Source: Dyella sp. RRB7
GTDB lineage: Bacteria; Pseudomonadota; Gammaproteobacteria; Xanthomonadales; Rhodanobacteraceae
DNA length: 64,000 nt
Direction: 5' to 3'
NCBI RefSeq assembly: GCF_022761115.1
Contig: NZ_JAKWJS010000006.1
Location: 124,001 to 188,000 of the forward strand
The notes beneath the pieces were generated by a model. It saw only the letters and a list, made by a program, of their open reading frames with translations, searched no databases and was not told where the DNA came from. Made by a program: the position numbers and the translations under genes. This document shows positions 16,041-23,833 of this stretch, in pieces. How positions within the stretch are numbered: the stretch's first letter is position 1; every line of letters begins with the position of its first letter.

Positions 16041-16808
16041 ATGCGCATTGCTCTGGGTATCGAATACGACGGCACCGATTTCTCCGGCTGGCAGCGTTTG
16101 AGCCATGGCGAAACCGTGCAGGGCGCACTGGAGCGGGCACTGTCGTTCGTGGCGGCGCATCCGGTGGAAGTGACCTGCGCCGGGCGTACCGATGCCGGCG
16201 TGCATGGGCGCTGCCAGGTGGTGCACTTCGATACCCTGGCGCCGCGCGACATGCGTAGCTGGGTGCTCGGTACCTGCTCCAACCTGCCTGGCAGCGTGGC
16301 CGTGCTGTGGGCGCAGCCGGTGGCCGAGGCTTTCCATGCGCGCTTCTCCGCACGCAGCCGGCGCTATCGCTATCGCATCCTCAATCGACAGGTGCGCGCG
16401 GCGCTGGACGCGCGCTATGTCACCTGGGAGCGTCTGCCGCTGGATGCCGCGCGCATGCACGAGGCGGCCCAGGTGCTGGTGGGCGAGCATGATTTCAGCG
16501 CGTTCCGCGCCATCTCGTGCCAGGCGGCGCATGCGCGCCGCGAAGTGCTGGCGGTGAGCGTGCGGCGTGAGGATGAGCAGGTCATCGTCGAGATCGAGGC
16601 CAATGCCTTCCTGCACCATATGGTGCGCAACATCGTGGGTTCGCTGCTGCCGATCGGGCGCGGCGAGCAGCCGGTGTGCTGGATGGGCGAACTGCTGGCC
16701 GGCCGCAACCGCGAGGTCGCCGGCCCCACCGCGCTGGCGTCGGGCCTGACCTTTCTCGGTCCCCGTTATGAATCGCATTGGGGCTTGCCGCCGGAGGTGA
16801 GCCAATGA
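16041..16808 (+). CDS. truA: tRNA pseudouridine(38-40) synthase TruA
   Basis: 255 residues. TruA makes pseudouridine at positions 38-40 of the tRNA anticodon arm. The catalytic Asp51 sits in [18 protein letters not shown]. The opening [16 protein letters not shown] and the C-terminal block [23 protein letters not shown] are hallmarks of the family. The stop codon overlaps the trpF start in an ATGA arrangement, so the two genes are translationally coupled. It follows fimV as in many gammaproteobacteria. Confidence 0.96.
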
Positions 16809-17422
16809 CCCGCATCAAGTGTTGCGGCATGACCCGCGTCGAGGATGCGCTGCTGGCGGCATCGCTGGGCGCCGATGCGATCGGGCTGGTGTTCACGGCC
16901 CGCAGCCGGCGCCGGGTATCCATCGAACAGGCGCGCGCGATCGTTCGTGCGCTGCCGCCGTTCGTCACCGTCGTCGCATTGTTGATGGACGACGAGGCGC
17001 TGCTGGTGCAGGAGGTGATCGATGCCGTGCAGCCGGACCTGCTGCAGTTTCACGGCAGCGAGCGTGACGACTGGTGCGCGCAATTCGGTCGCCGCTATCT
17101 GAAGGCCATCGCGATGGGCGAAGGCGCTGCGGCACTGCCGCAGTTGCGCCACTACCCCGGCGCATCGGGGCTGCTGCTGGATGGTCACGGCCTGGGCGAG
17201 GCGGGGGGCAGCGGCAAGGCGTTCGACTGGTCATTGATGCCCAGGGACCTCGCGCAGCCGTTGATCCTGGCCGGCGGCCTGACCCCGCTGAACGTGGCCG
17301 AGGCCATTCGCGTCGCGAGCCCGTGGGCGGTGGACGTGGCCAGCGGCATCGAGTCGGCGCCCGGCATCAAGGATCCGCGGAAGATGGCGGACTTTATCCA
17401 GGCCGTGCGCAGCGCCTTGTAG
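16805..17422 (+). CDS. trpF: Phosphoribosylanthranilate isomerase
   Basis: 205 residues from ATG 16805, which overlaps the truA stop by four bases. TrpF catalyses the Amadori rearrangement of phosphoribosylanthranilate in tryptophan synthesis. The catalytic Cys is in [12 protein letters not shown] near residue 6, where most enzymes have KICG. The general-acid Asp is in [21 protein letters not shown] near residue 122, and the phosphate-binding block [16 protein letters not shown] is present. trpF is separated from trpBA by a divergent LysR gene, an arrangement also seen in related genera. Confidence 0.95.
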
Positions 17423-17453
17423 GGGCGCACCCTGCACGGAGTCCCCGATTGCC

Positions 17454-18350
17454 TCAATGCTGGGGCTTCGCAAACTCCGCCCGCAGCCAGGCCGCCAACG
17501 CTGCCGAGCGCTCGATGGGCGCCCGTGATGGTGTCGCCAGCACCCACTGCGCGGCGGTGTCCTGGAAGCCCCAGGGCGCGAGCAGTCGTCCCGAGGCCAG
17601 GTCATCGGCGACCAGCTGCAGCGGTGCGATAGCGACGCCGCGGCCCGCGACGGCCGCTTCGATCAGGTGATACAGATGCGGGTAGCCTTGGCCTAGCGGC
17701 AGCTCGTGGGTCGACAAGCCAGTGCTTTGCGCCCAGCTCGACCAGGCCTGCGGCCGCGACAGCGTATGCAGCAGCGGCAGTTCTGGCAGCACCTGCGGAT
17801 CGCTGCCGGCTAAGGCATGCGCCTGGGCGAAGGAAGGGCTCACTACCGGCCCCACGCGTTCACGCGCCAGCGGATGTACCTGCCATGCCGCTGGCCACGG
17901 CGGTTCGCCGGCTAGTACCGCGGCATCCAAGCCGGTCAATGCGTCGTCGAAGGGGGCTTCCTGCGGGCGCAGGTGCAATGCCAGTTCGGGCAGCTCGGCC
18001 ATCAGCCGTTCCAGCCGGGGGATCATCCAGCGCGCCAGCAGGCTCACCGGGCAGCCGAGCACGAACGGCGCCTGGGCGGTGTCCTGGCGCAACTCGTCGC
18101 AAACCTCGCGCAGCTGGGCGAATGCCGCCGTGCTGGTGTCGCGCAGGCGCTGGCCGGCCGGAGTGAGCGCCAGCCCGCGTCCCTGGCGCTGGAACAGGGC
18201 CACGCCCAGTTCTTCCTCGAGTGAGCGAATGTGTCGGCTCACCGCCCCATGGGTGACGTGCAGTTCGGCCGCCGCGCGATTGACGCTGCCTAGCCGTGCC
18301 ACGGCTTCGAAGGCATGCAGGGCATTCAGCGAGGGCAGTGGCCGGGGCAT
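17454..18350 (-). CDS. LysR-family regulator next to trpBA (TrpI-like candidate)
   Basis: 298 residues on the minus strand. The N-terminal helix-turn-helix is LGSVNRAAAELHVTHGAVSRHIRSLEEELGVALFQR, with the LTPAG end of the linker. The C-terminal effector domain follows and resembles the GcvA/TrpI subgroup. The gene is divergent from trpB, with a 109-bp shared gap, as TrpI is from trpBA in pseudomonads, where it activates trpBA in response to indoleglycerol phosphate. That role here is inferred from position and subgroup. I cannot define an operator with confidence. Confidence 0.85.
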   Translation of the reverse strand: MPRPLPSLNALHAFEAVARLGSVNRAAAELHVTHGAVSRHIRSLEEELGVALFQRQGRGLALTPAGQRLRDTSTAAFAQLREVCDELRQDTAQAPFVLGCPVSLLARWMIPRLERLMAELPELALHLRPQEAPFDDALTGLDAAVLAGEPPWPAAWQVHPLARERVGPVVSPSFAQAHALAGSDPQVLPELPLLHTLSRPQAWSSWAQSTGLSTHELPLGQGYPHLYHLIEAAVAGRGVAIAPLQLVADDLASGRLLAPWGFQDTAAQWVLATPSRAPIERSAALAAWLRAEFAKPQH

Positions 18351-18459
18351 CTAACGTGTGACTTTTCCTGACGTATCGTGGCCATCATATCGCTTTTGGC
18401 CGCGGTGGCTTTGGGGTAGGGTGGCGGGCGCGTTTCGCCGTCTTCCCCGAGTGCCGCCC

Positions 18460-19667
<1,208 letters not shown>

Positions 19668-19671
<4 letters not shown>

Positions 19672-20468
19672 GCCGCATCGACCGTCGTTTCGTCCAGCTC
19701 AAGGCCGCCGGCCGCACCGGACTGATTCCCTTCGTCACCGCGGGCGATCCGTCGCCGGCGCATGCCGTCGCGCTGATGCACGCACTGGTGGATGCCGGCG
19801 CCGACGTGATCGAGCTGGGCGTGCCGTTTTCCGATCCGATGGCCGATGGCCCGGTAATCCAGCATGCCAGCGAGCGCGCCATCGAGAAGGGCGTCGGGCT
19901 CGCCGATGTGCTGGGCTGGGTGGCCCAGTTCCGCCAGCGCGACGCGGACACGCCGATCGTGCTGATGGGCTACCTCAACCCGATCGAGATCCATGGCTAT
20001 GCGCGCTTCGCCGCCGAGGCTGTGCAGGCCGGCGTGGACGGCGTGCTGGTGGTCGATTGCCCGCTGGAGGAGTCGGCCGTGCTGCAGCCGCTGCGCGACG
20101 CCGGGCTGCAGCAGATCCTGCTGGCGGCGCCCACCACCGCACCCGCGCGTATGGTGCAGTTGTGCGGGTCGGCCCGGGGTTTCCTGTACTATGTCTCGTT
20201 CGCCGGCATCACGGGCGCGGCGCGATTGAGCACGGGCGACATCGCCGCGCGCGTGGCCGATATCCGGGCGAAGTCGAAGGCTCCGGTGGCCGTCGGCTTT
20301 GGCGTGCGCGATGCGCAGTCGGCCAAGGCGATCGCCGGTTTTGCCGACGCGGTAGTGATCGGCAGTGCGCTGGTGGAGCGCCTGGCCGGCGCGGACGATG
20401 TCGATGACATCACCGCGCGGGCAAGCGCTTTTCTCGCGCCGATCCGCGCCGCGCTGGATGCGCATTGA
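19668..20468 (+). CDS. trpA: Tryptophan synthase alpha chain
   Basis: 266 residues from ATG 19668, overlapping the trpB stop. TrpA cleaves indoleglycerol phosphate to indole, which is channelled to TrpB. The catalytic Glu49 is in [20 protein letters not shown], and the second catalytic Asp lies in the same stretch. The phosphate-binding C-terminal part [14 protein letters not shown] and VVIGSALV is intact. The Tyr in [14 protein letters not shown] matches the active-site position. accD follows after 52 bp on the same strand. Confidence 0.97.
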
Positions 20469-20520
20469 GGACACGCTGCGTCATGACGCGGCGTCGCGTC
20501 ATGAACGTTGAGGTGTTGCG

Positions 20521-21390
20521 ATGAACTGGCTGCAGAAAATCATGACTCCGCGTGCTCGCACGCAGGCCACCAACGGCGGCAAGGGCAAGGTGCCCGAAGG
20601 CGTGTGGGAGAAGTGCGGCGGTTGCGGCACGGTGCTGTATCGGCCGGAGCTGGAACGCAACCTGATGGTCTGCCCCAAGTGCGGCTACCACCACGCCATC
20701 GATGCGCGCGCGCGGCTGGATTCGTTCCTCGATCCCGGCTCCACGCAGGAGCTGTGGGCCAGCATGGAGCCGAACGATCCGCTGAAGTTCCGTGATTCCA
20801 AGAAGTACCGCGACCGCATCGTCGCCGCGCAGAAGTCCACCGGCGAGAAGGACGCCATGCTGGCGATGAGTGGCCGCCTCAAGGGGCGCCCGCTGATGGC
20901 GGTGGCGTTCGAGTTCGCCTACATGGGCGGCTCGATGGGTTCGGTGGTGGGCGAGAAATTCACCCGTGCCGCCGAACGTGCGCTGGCCGATCGCAGCGCG
21001 CTGGTGTGCTTCTCGGCGACGGGTGGCGCGCGCATGCAGGAGTCGCTGTTCTCGCTGATGCAGATGGCCAAGACCTCCGCGGCGCTGGCGCGCATGCGCG
21101 ATGCGGGCGTGCCGTATATCAGCGTGCTGACCAATCCCACCACCGGCGGCGTTTCCGCCAGCCTTGGCATGCTGGGCGACATCAATGTCGCCGAACCGAA
21201 GGCCTTGATCGGTTTCGCCGGGCCGCGCGTGATTGCGCAGACCGTGCGCGAAACCTTGCCGGAGGGGTTCCAGACCTCGGAATTCCTGGTCGAACACGGT
21301 GCCGTCGATCTCATCGTCGATCGCCGCGAGATGCGCGACAAGCTGGCCGACCTGCTGGGCATCCTGATGAAGGCGCCGCAGGCTGCCTGA
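20521..21390 (+). CDS. accD: Acetyl-CoA carboxylase carboxyltransferase subunit beta
   Basis: 289 residues. AccD and AccA form the carboxyltransferase that makes malonyl-CoA for fatty acid synthesis. The N-terminal zinc ribbon has four Cys in [24 protein letters not shown]. The carboxyltransferase core follows, with the blocks [34 protein letters not shown] and [16 protein letters not shown]. In many gammaproteobacteria folC follows accD. Here a terminator and a DnaA-box-like array follow instead. Confidence 0.97.
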
Positions 21391-21410
21391 TCGCGTTCGA
21401 CGCATCGCCC

Positions 21411-21440
21411 AAAAAACAGCGCCCCATGGGCGCTGTTTTT
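21411..21440 (+). terminator. accD intrinsic terminator
   Basis: An A-rich left side and the stem AACAGCGCC with GGCGCTGTT, followed by a run of T. The A-run on the left makes it potentially bidirectional. It separates the trpBA-accD genes from the repeat array. Confidence 0.88.
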
Positions 21441-21455
21441 GTATGCGCGCGCGAG

Positions 21456-21860
21456 TTGTCCACAGCGGCTGTGGACCTGTTCCGGGTAAGCCTGTGGAAA
21501 AGCCTTGTGGCGACCTTTGGCAACAGGCACTTGCACCATCGTGATGATGTTTTGACCAGTGCGTCCGCGCATCCACGTGGTTTTCCACAGCGACTGTGGA
21601 TGGTGTTTGCATAAGCCTGTGGACAAGCGCGTTTGCGGCATTTGCGAACAGTGACTTGTGACGTCGTGCCTAAGTTTTGAGCAGCGCATGCATGATGTTT
21701 TCCACAGCGCCTGTGGATGCCGCACCAACAAAGCTGTGGAAAAGTATCGCAACTGTCTGGTGCGGCAGGGCATGGCCACGCCGTGGCGAACTTTTGCCCA
21801 GCGCGCACATGATGTTTTCCACAGCAGATGTGGATGCCTGCGGGAAAAGCTTGTGGATAG
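21456..21860. repeat. Tandem array of twelve DnaA-box-like motifs in four units
   Basis: The 594-bp gap 21391-21984 has no gene. It holds four units of three TCCACA/TGTGGA motifs, starting at 21456, 21581, 21698 and 21815 (periods 125, 117 and 117 bp). In every unit the second motif begins 14 bases after the first and the third 37 bases after the first. The first is TTTTCCACA (TTGTCCACA in unit 1), inverted to the second, TGTGGATGC-like. The third is TGTGGAAAA, TGTGGACAA, TGTGGAAAA or TGTGGATAG. TTTTCCACA fits the relaxed DnaA consensus TTWTNCACA. Each first/second pair is also a potential RNA hairpin. No dnaA, dnaN, gyrB or rpmH is present, so it is not the usual oriC locus. Confidence 0.8.
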
Positions 21861-21984
21861 ATGTGCTATCCGCTTGAACGCAAAGACGTTGCGACGCGGT
21901 GGGCAGGAAATGCGCAGGTGATGCGATGAGGTGTTCGTGTATCGCGCACAGGGTGCGCTCCCTGGCGGCAGCGCCGTCAGTGGA

Positions 21985-22557
21985 TCACACCATCAACGCA
22001 TGCATCGGCAACAACCACAGCGAGAGCGCACCCAGCGCACTGCCGATGGCGGTGGCGGCGATCACGTCGCTCGGGTAATGCAGGCCAAGGATCACGCGCG
22101 ATGCACCCACTAACGCGGTGAAGGTGAGCAGCAGCGGCGCCAGCACCGGATACCAGGCCAGCGCCACGACGGTGAAGCTCACGGCCTGCAGCGTGTGGCC
22201 CGAGGGGAAGCTGAACTCGTCCAGCGGCGGCACGTGTGCGATCACGCCGGGGCAGGCGCGGAACGGACGCGGACGACGCGTCCAGCGCTTGAGCAGGCGA
22301 TAGAGCAGCAGCGCCGCCAGGCCCGTCACCGCCATCTGCGCCGCGGCGAAGCGGCCGCGATGGCCGTCGATGAGAGCGAGCACGAGCATCAGCGAGTACC
22401 AGAACACGCCATCGCCCAGTCGGCTGATGACGCCAAAGAACGCACCGACGGCGCGGCGCGTGCCCCAGCGGTTGGCCGCCACGCACATGCGGCGATCGAT
22501 CGCGAACCTCGGGCCTGCGGGCAACTCAGGCGTGTGCAGCGGTGGCATGGTGTTCAT
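21985..22557 (-). CDS. PAP2-family phosphatase, membrane bound
   Basis: 190 residues from ATG 22557, with AGGAG seven bases upstream. This start lies 32 bp inside the 3' end of the upstream glycosyltransferase. The PAP2 catalytic signature is complete: KRWTRRPRPF (motif C1), SFPSGHT (C2) and SRVILGLHYPSD (C3). Several hydrophobic segments indicate an inner-membrane protein with its active site at the periplasmic face. Substrates in the family include undecaprenyl diphosphate and phosphatidic acid. Overlap with a glycosyltransferase suggests lipid-linked glycan or glycolipid work, which is inference. Confidence 0.88.
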   Translation of the reverse strand: MNTMPPLHTPELPAGPRFAIDRRMCVAANRWGTRRAVGAFFGVISRLGDGVFWYSLMLVLALIDGHRGRFAAAQMAVTGLAALLLYRLLKRWTRRPRPFRACPGVIAHVPPLDEFSFPSGHTLQAVSFTVVALAWYPVLAPLLLTFTALVGASRVILGLHYPSDVIAATAIGSALGALSLWLLPMHALMV

Positions 22558-23686
22558 GCGGATGCTCCTGGGCCAGTTCACGCAACAGGTTTTCGAATTC
22601 GCCGATGACGGCGTCCGGTGAGAGGTTGGCAATGCTGGCGTGGGCGGCGCGGCCCATGTGGCGGATCAGGCTCGCGTTGCTGGCCAGGGTGGTGGCGGCG
22701 TCGATGAAGGCGTTCTCGTTGCCGGCATCGATGCGATAGCCGTTATGGCCACTGCGCAGATGCTCGCGTGCGGCGCCTTCCTCATAGGCCACTACCGGCA
22801 GGCCGGAGGCGAGCGCTTCGAGGATGACGTTGCCGAACGTCTCGCTGAGGCTGGGGAAGGGGAACAGGTCCGCGCTGGCGTAGTGGCGGGACAGCATCTC
22901 GCCGCGCTGCATGCCGGCGAAGATGAAATCCGGATTGGCCGCCTGCAAGGCCGCGCGCGCCGGTCCGTCGCCGACCCAGACGTAGCGCGCATGGGGCACC
23001 TGCTGCTGGATCGAGCGGAAGCTGCGCACGGCAAGGTCGAGATTCTTCTCCGGCGCAATGCGTCCCACGTACAACACCACCGGTGAGTTGCCATCCACGC
23101 CCCACTGGCGGCGCAATCCGGCGTCGCGATGGCGGGGATGGAACAGCTGCGTGTCGACGGCGCGTCGCAGCAGGCGCGCGGTATCGACGCCGAGTGTTTT
23201 CAGCTCATCGGCCAGGGCTTCCGTGGGCACCAGCGTCGCCGCGGCGCGGCGATGGAAGCGGCGCAGATAGTTGCGCACCACCGGCGTGAGGAAGCCCACC
23301 CCATAGTGATCCGCATAGGTGTCGAAGCGGGTGTGGAAGCCGGTGGCGGTGGGAATGCCGAGCCGTTTCGCGGTGCGCACCGCCGACCAGCCCAGCGGGC
23401 CTTCGGTGGCGACGTAGATCGCATCCGGGCGCAGCCGCGTCCAGCGCTCGCGCAGGATGTCGCTGGCCGGAAGCCCGAAGCGCAGGCCGGGATAGCGGGG
23501 CAGCGAGGCGCCGCGAACCTCAAGGGTGACGATGCCGGGCTCGTCGTCGAACGGCTGCCGCTGACGCGGGCGGATCAGGTCGACCGTGTGCCCCTGCGAC
23601 GCCAGACCGGCGGCGAGGCTGTGCACGGTCAGTGCCACGCCGTTGATCTCGGGTGGATAGGTTTCGCTGACAATGCCGATGCGCAC
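22526..23686 (-). CDS. Glycosyltransferase family 4 protein
   Basis: 386 residues from a GTG at 23686 (VRIGIVSETYPPEINGVALTV, read as Met). An open frame extends upstream to 23821 but has no family similarity. The N-terminal GT-B domain opens with ETYPPEINGVA, typical of the mannosyltransferase-like branch. The C-terminal domain has the sugar-nucleotide block VVLYVGRIAPEKNLDLAV and the catalytic EX7E region FPSLSETFGNVILEALASG. The protein is cytoplasmic or membrane-associated. The acceptor is unknown. A His-rich tail follows. The PAP2 gene starts within its last codons. Confidence 0.88.
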   Translation of the reverse strand: MRIGIVSETYPPEINGVALTVHSLAAGLASQGHTVDLIRPRQRQPFDDEPGIVTLEVRGASLPRYPGLRFGLPASDILRERWTRLRPDAIYVATEGPLGWSAVRTAKRLGIPTATGFHTRFDTYADHYGVGFLTPVVRNYLRRFHRRAAATLVPTEALADELKTLGVDTARLLRRAVDTQLFHPRHRDAGLRRQWGVDGNSPVVLYVGRIAPEKNLDLAVRSFRSIQQQVPHARYVWVGDGPARAALQAANPDFIFAGMQRGEMLSRHYASADLFPFPSLSETFGNVILEALASGLPVVAYEEGAAREHLRSGHNGYRIDAGNENAFIDAATTLASNASLIRHMGRAAHASIANLSPDAVIGEFENLLRELAQEHPHEHHATAAHA

Positions 23687-23833
23687 TTGAACATACCGTT
23701 GGCTGGCCCGGAGCAGGTTCCACCTTGGGCGTTGCGGGGCCGTGGCGTATGTATGACGCCCGCGTGACGGAGCGCCACTCGCGGCGGGTGCCACGAGTAC
23801 ACTGGGCGGACTTGCCATCATGGAGACACGTCG

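Follow-up and report, generated by a model that had tools for sequence, protein, structure and literature searches.

The closest described systems are the two DARS loci of Escherichia coli. According to the excerpted text of PMC5742627, the cores of DARS1 and DARS2 each contain three DnaA boxes at the same spacing, with box I opposite in direction to boxes II and III, and ADP-DnaA molecules on boxes I and II are thought to meet head-to-head, upon which ADP leaves; DARS1 acts without added factors. The same account is given in the corresponding section of PMC8682772, where DARS2 is traced in seven E. coli-proximal species. Vibrio and Shewanella are among the species compared for DARS in these two sources, in whose excerpted parts it is otherwise a feature of E. 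coli (PMC5742627, PMC8682772). The two loci are situated upstream of uvrB (DARS1) and of mutH (DARS2), respectively (PMC11317965, in part). In E. coli MG1655 we find the cores at 813107 (TTATCCACT-5-TGTGGATAA-3-TGTGTATTA, the figures being the bp between 9-mers) and at 2969135 (TTATTCACC-5-TGTGGATAG-3-TGTGAAGAA), the latter falling between the primer sequences given in the available part of PMC4585315 for replacement of DARS2 boxes I-III.

Other clusters of DnaA boxes are known outside oriC, and in this respect resemble the array described here. The E. coli datA locus acts on ATP-DnaA and has IHF bound among its boxes (PMC5742627, PMC4585315, both in part), whereas the 460 bp of the array contain no IHF-like site within two mismatches; this is a weak test and the absence says little, since only 0.66 sites would be expected by chance. 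Regulation of the DARS2 type is marked by IHF and Fis sites at fixed positions, and for it the IHF result is of equally little weight. Bacillus subtilis has several DnaA-box clusters outside oriC, for which, however, DARS geometry is not reported in the excerpted text of PMC13220808; the species is without Hda, datA and DARS, according to the portion of a review consulted. Titration of DnaA by the chromosome is supported in E. coli (PMC12371093, in part).

The window, by which we mean the whole 64-kb stretch of DNA analysed, is G000:C16:124001-188000, from a genome of 4.08 Mb in 19 contigs. Judged by AccD, its closest named records are Rhodanobacter sp. C03 and Dyella marensis, at 89% each, and we accordingly treat the source as a member of the Rhodanobacteraceae. 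Reading its sequence directly, we find the four-unit array that had been described in the earlier note from the letters alone: twelve TCCACA/TGTGGA hexamers, 9-mers starting at 21456, 21581, 21698 and 21815 with periods of 125, 117 and 117 bp, and boxes at 0, +14 and +37 in all four units, correct to the base (Table 1). The hexamer TCCACA by itself shows no enrichment across the window, with 27 occurrences against 24.6 expected. The three-box pattern, by contrast, matches exactly four times there and seven times at up to three mismatches, the other three matches overlapping the array, and at that same tolerance was found in none of 100 dinucleotide shuffles. The proposed fit to the relaxed DnaA box TTWTNCACA is borne out for boxes I and III, where it rests on the 9-mer flanks lying outside the searched hexamers. 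All five exact 9-mers of this kind in the window are within the array, whose 460 bp hold 5 exact boxes and 10 with at most one mismatch, compared with 0.00 and 0.09 for an equal length of the remaining window sequence. The array went unreported by Tandem Repeats Finder. DNA between the units can still be aligned (62-80% over 61-76 nt), so that the array is a tandem duplication whose units have diverged while the boxes stayed strongly constrained. The earlier view that spacing is conserved while intervening bases have drifted stands, except that the drifting DNA is not wholly unconstrained.

The array is flanked by convergent genes, accD and a PAP2-type phosphatase gene, the latter named by reading since its nearest NCBIfam profiles, SepP and PgpB, both score below cut-off. 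The hairpin that follows accD was found as an inverted repeat and was not flagged by a simple terminator scan. Within the annotated interval 16041-23821 the neighbours of the array are truA, trpF, a lysR-type gene, trpB, trpA, accD, the PAP2-type gene and a glycosyltransferase; the earlier observation that oriC marker genes are lacking thus holds for this interval. The dnaA gene sits on a different contig (C1), with two copies of TTATCCACA directly after it, two of ATATCCACA upstream of it at a distance of 12 bp from each other, and a following gene that we read by eye as dnaN. The suggestion of a secondary, oriC-like origin at the array was rejected: its neighbours do not include dnaA or dnaN, no AT-rich stretch was seen on reading its sequence, and oriC-type boxes are instead present at dnaA on C1.

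Table 1. Features at and around the array, in coordinates of the 64-kb window.
Feature	Coordinates	Strand	Hexamers (TCCACA/TGTGGA)	Details
accD (acetyl-CoA carboxylase carboxyltransferase beta)	20521..21390	+		TIGR00515 above cut-off; upstream neighbour of array
Terminator-like hairpin after accD, before array	21412..21440	+		13-nt arms, fully complementary; T run ends second arm
Unit 1	21456..21501	+	21459, 21470, 21493	box I TTGTCCACA 21456-21464 (+); box II 21470-21478 (-); weak box IIb register 21481-21489; box III TTTTCCACA 21493-21501 (-)
Unit 2	21581..21626	+	21584, 21595, 21618	box I TTTTCCACA 21581-21589 (+); box II 21595-21603 (-); weak box IIb TTATGCAAA 21606-21614 (-); box III TTGTCCACA 21618-21626 (-)
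Unit 3	21698..21743	+	21701, 21712, 21735	box I TTTTCCACA 21698-21706 (+); box II 21712-21720 (-); IIb register 21723-21731, match poor; box III TTTTCCACA 21735-21743 (-)
Unit 4	21815..21860	+	21818, 21829, 21852	box I TTTTCCACA 21815-21823 (+); box II 21829-21837 (-); IIb register 21840-21848; box III CTATCCACA 21852-21860 (-)
PAP2-type phosphatase gene	21985..22632	-		name by reading; convergent with accD

A search of the array's own genome with the first gap allowed to vary from N3 to N9 and the second from N5 to N30, along the lines that the earlier note had proposed, gave six places: the four array units, a further unit at C15:66694 and a core at C15:59751. The C15:66694 unit is downstream of an SDR gene, and the unit that comes after it has a changed box II. 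At this SDR site one unit (L118 14807-14852) carries the box II variant TGGGGA in several genomes, and the variant is shared at the SDR-site loci L098, L101, L102, L104, L108, L153, L232 and L233, which suggests a retained version with a weaker predicted box II.

The exact pattern TCCACA-N5-TGTGGA-N17-TGTGGA (hereafter the N17 unit) occurs in 109 of 197 genomes of the family Rhodanobacteraceae, representing 18 of 26 genera, with between 1 and 14 copies in each genome having any; a reversed-pattern control gave none among the rows listed. The element is not universal, there being no site in the other 88 family genomes (exact pattern) or in 8 of 16 single-contig genomes of a sister family (at most one mismatch). 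Synteny is evident among 29 new family loci that were fetched, of which 19 lie between accD and PAP2, five at the SDR site, four between trpF and lysR and one elsewhere; the first three of these sites are all convergent gene ends. For sister-family loci, gene context typed by the longest ORF proved unreliable in high-GC DNA and does not enter any count. The orthologous accD region was also compared in 19 named records, looking for units at up to two mismatches within 5 kb on each side. Units are present in five, namely Rhodanobacter C03, C01 and B05, a Rhodanobacter MAG and Dyella marensis, so that close relatives do have the array; by the same measure they are absent from Luteibacter dw_328 and 13 other Xanthomonadales records. 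One of the three units in Dyella marensis is inverted. We found no report of the N17 element in the open-access literature searched, where most subscription papers are missing.

The spacing of the boxes is constrained. In the own-genome scan all six places have N5 as the first gap, although only one genome is involved; the figure of 184 out of 184 at N5 among fetched loci is biased, those loci having been retrieved with N5 patterns, and the N3-N9 scan is the fairer guide. For the second gap we allowed any value between N0 and N30 and scanned 54 genomes of the family, of which 50 had a match. Among the 150 matches listed, out of a larger total, it was N6 in 40, N16 in 6, N17 in 103 and N18 in one. 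Between the 9-mers of boxes II and III the offset is accordingly 12, equal to one step, or else 22, 23 or 24, equal to two steps of 11 or 12 bp. A similar picture emerged from 24 genomes in other families of the order, chosen for having an earlier match and counted by eye, whose 79 rows comprise 8 at N6, 64 at N17, 5 at N18 and one each at N0 and N4. DnaA ChIP-seq in E. coli shows a preference for head-to-tail box pairs 2 or 3 bp apart (PMC11317965, in part), which translates into offsets of 11 or 12. The predicted boxes II and III obey this spacing rule of DnaA, and the earlier idea of selection on geometry gains support across two families.

How well each box resembles the DnaA consensus was assessed in 141 distinct family units and 45 from the sister family. 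Box I is an exact TTWTNCACA in 121 of the 141 and has at most one mismatch in 140, the sister-family figures being 10 and 44 of 45. For box III the corresponding values are 27 and 128 of 141, and 35 and 45 of 45. Box II, mostly TGTGGATG, is an exact DnaA box in none of the units of either family (0/141 and 0/45), and comes within one mismatch in 20 of the 141 and 14 of the 45.

A II-III gap of two steps predicts a box in the middle. In both families, each considered separately, the register of the 17-nt spacer that best fits a DnaA box is at offset 22, 2 bp after box II and 3 bp before box III. With every offset counted, column shuffles attained the best score in 5 of 500 trials for the family and 21 of 500 for the sister family, and at offset 22 itself in 0 and 2 of 500, respectively. 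The family consensus at this box, which we call IIb, has GG at +25/+26 (88% and 82%) and AA at +29/+30 (81% and 98%), fitting TGTGGATAA in register; AA at +29/+30 (86% and 97%) fits likewise in the sister family. In the window IIb reads TTATGCAAA in unit 2, and little of it is to be seen in unit 3. In both families a degenerate, predicted DnaA box is kept in register within the N17 spacer; the support for IIb is moderate in the sister family and comes from pooled, related units.

The remaining place in the own genome, which has N6 as its second gap, is of a different kind. This core, TTATCCACAGCAGCTGTGGATAAGTCTGTGGA (G000:C15:59751-59785; L118 7752-7786), lies 45 bp upstream of the first start of the priA reading frame, although the real priA start may be further away since priA profiles begin near residue 44. 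Its I/II part is identical to that of the array units in the same genome, from which it differs in being a single copy, in having a strong box II (TGTGGATAA) and in its 3-bp II-III gap. With 3 bp between 9-mers II and III, the core reproduces the sequence geometry of E. coli DARS exactly. It is present in at least 40 family genomes, once per genome among the matches listed, and in 17 of 24 family loci fetched from the spacing scan (L132-L140, L142, L146, L148-L150, L152, L154 and L155 among the family loci having it); priA adjoins all 17. A stricter DARS-geometry pattern was found in 155 of 370 sampled gammaproteobacterial genomes, its control giving none among the rows listed, and tblastn places a priA homologue beside 12 of 30 such loci that were fetched. 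The N6 core is possibly a widespread, priA-linked DARS. The strict DARS pattern was not found in the 190 bp of DNA examined upstream of E. coli priA.

Set beside DARS1 and DARS2, the array units have much in common with them: three DnaA boxes, judged by sequence, at a non-coding locus away from oriC; a box I in the reverse orientation to boxes II and III; and, in four of four units, 5 bp between the head-to-head 9-mers I and II. On the other hand, the II-III gap is 3 bp in E. coli but 14 bp (2+9+3) in the array, the array has its weak extra box between II and III, and box II is strong in E. coli but weak here. The array units are moreover in tandem at a site where gene 3' ends converge, as opposed to lying upstream of uvrB or mutH. 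Because the II-III gap, a defining feature of the E. coli core, is different, we call the units DARS-like and do not class them as DARS.

Our preferred reading, to which we would assign a probability of about 0.55, is that the array consists of four tandem DARS-like, predicted DnaA-binding elements, each carrying a weak additional box. Throughout the array box I faces box II head-to-head across 5 bp; boxes II and III are head-to-tail, and the gap between them is covered in two steps (2 bp and 3 bp) around the degenerate IIb, in place of the 3 bp of E. coli. ADP-DnaA may bind box I and the II-IIb-III row; head-to-head contact of AAA+ domains at I/II would then promote loss of ADP, and the apo-DnaA would depart and reload with ATP. 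The tandem units might in this way raise or time the supply of ATP-DnaA, besides holding (titrating) DnaA. The array's genome encodes Hda, so that ADP-DnaA is presumably made and must be recharged or replaced. Among the roles that the earlier note had listed, a DnaA-reactivating or titrating site appears the best supported, by box fit, I/II geometry, the II-III rule and the priA core. The DnaA binding, nucleotide exchange and cell-cycle role envisaged here are predictions from sequence, and the weak box II and altered II-III spacing point against simple DARS activity. Further points against the reading are that no more than 10 of 45 sister-family units have an exact box I, that IIb is weak and, in unit 3, nearly absent, and that many genomes are without an N17 site.

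The main rival to this reading keeps DnaA and dispenses with nucleotide exchange: the array would act as a dense sink for free DnaA, and titration only would set the threshold for initiation. The extreme density of boxes in the array and the variation in copy number from 1 to 14 exact units, which a sink would permit, both accord with this, as does the literature on titration in E. coli and on the B. subtilis clusters, in the parts of PMC12371093 and PMC13220808 drawn on above. A sink requires neither a fixed 5-bp I/II gap nor a quantised II-III gap, however, and both are found in two families; loci with a single unit also exist. We consider titration only a credible reading, if on balance an unlikely one.

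Chromosomal position was expressed as distance from dnaA as a share of the half-chromosome, the terminus being taken as the antipode of dnaA. On this scale E. coli DARS1 lies at 0.66 and DARS2 at 0.41, compared with 0.57-0.82 for those arrays of single-contig relatives that have accD or PAP2 in view: arrays with accD seen alongside (G113, G124, G179, G045, G006) span this whole range, and one with PAP2 alongside (G017) lies at 0.82. The arrays of G031 and G046, whose context is by inference, are at 0.77-0.79. SDR-site units are at 0.32-0.38 where the context was seen (G113, G124) and at 0.21-0.29 where it was inferred (G045, G179), and N6 cores at 0.07-0.48. As to orientation, 40 of 43 sister-family N17 sites (at most one mismatch) point along the fork. 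Six single-contig genomes from two genera of that family (G655, G633, G662, G666, G665, G757), with 5-7 sites each at 0.47-0.99 of the origin-terminus distance, account for 37 sites, all co-oriented; in G658 and G745, from two other genera, three of six sites run along the fork and three against it. One of these three is a one-mismatch, probable chance match at 0.21. The other two stay as exceptions, since no dif-like sequence that might explain them was found in 280 kb of the two genomes and GC skew, positive in 13 of 14 stretches, does not rescue them. For the family, 32 sites from ten single-contig genomes were entered and 31 of these run along the fork, one site per array having been entered for G113, G124 and G179; the exception is in G021.

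A more ambitious version of the DARS-like reading, which we put forward tentatively and hold to be rather doubtful, is that the N17 elements form an undescribed second class of DnaA-reactivating element, with the extra weak box between II and III, alongside a widespread priA-linked DARS core. Dispersed or in tandem, mostly terminus-proximal and fork-oriented, they might be so placed that late replication and fork passage set the ATP-DnaA supply for the next round. The orientation data would also suit a replication-polar element of chromosome organisation, such as a fork trap or a signal for segregation or for the terminus, recognised either by DnaA or by another protein with a similar site. 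We judge this improbable: besides the anti-oriented sites in G658, G745 and G021, the SDR-site units of the family, at 0.21-0.38, are away from the terminus. Independent events of orientation are, moreover, few, since within a genus the sites of different genomes look orthologous (some six loci for the main sister-family genus, by eye, from unit sequence), and the orientation counts are uncorrected for co-orientation of genes with replication.

A neutral extragenic repeat of the REP type, with no regulatory role, would account for the extragenic 3'-end location in the family, for the tandem amplification with some near-identical units in G113 and for four near-identical dispersed copies in G013. 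Yet copies are few, 1-14 exact ones per genome and not the hundreds that the earlier note had associated with a generic repeat; box bases and spacing are held while much else drifts, the same sites are retained across genera and the 9-mer matches the site of the initiator, all of which makes this explanation decidedly improbable.

Least likely of all, to the point of being barely tenable, is a transcribed hairpin RNA or terminator, for which boxes I and II could pair (CCACAG/CTGTGG), with folding z of -3.4 for unit 3 and -1.4 to -1.6 for the other three, and the unit 2 hairpin flagged by a simple terminator scan (one found against 0.9 expected in shuffles), but which is disfavoured by the changes seen among 37 degenerate units: of 31 altered pair cells none is compensatory, 23 are one-sided breaks of a box I/II pair and 8 become G-U. 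These units, with 1-4 of 18 box bases changed, are a small set and in part a single orthologous locus (TGGGGA at the SDR site), and the six with four changes look like chance or overlapping matches; as most of them (30 of 37) show one change only, the argument is that breaks persist uncompensated. The array also lies beyond the terminator-like hairpin that follows accD, no promoter-like site was found, and no Rfam family reaches its gathering score in 21300-22100, the best by E-value being MAT2A_A at 28.9 bits against a cut-off of 40.

If the DARS-like reading is true, the exact-geometry core in 155 of 370 gammaproteobacteria, together with the tandem four-box form in two families, would make DnaA recharging a widespread trait. 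The natural variants in spacing and copy number could then be used to test how head-to-head DnaA contacts expel ADP, and the tandem arrays would offer a natural dosage series for models of initiation timing.

Two minor observations concern mobility. The four nearly identical dispersed unit copies in G013, a genus mate, are at C1:963370, C1:1119856, C13:281979 and C15:599943, and look as if carried by a mobile element. In G017, six weak extra matches on contig C1 to the profile for the DnaA ATPase fall short of its cut-off, and five of them score identically; at a guess, these are perhaps the transposition ATPases of a repeated element.
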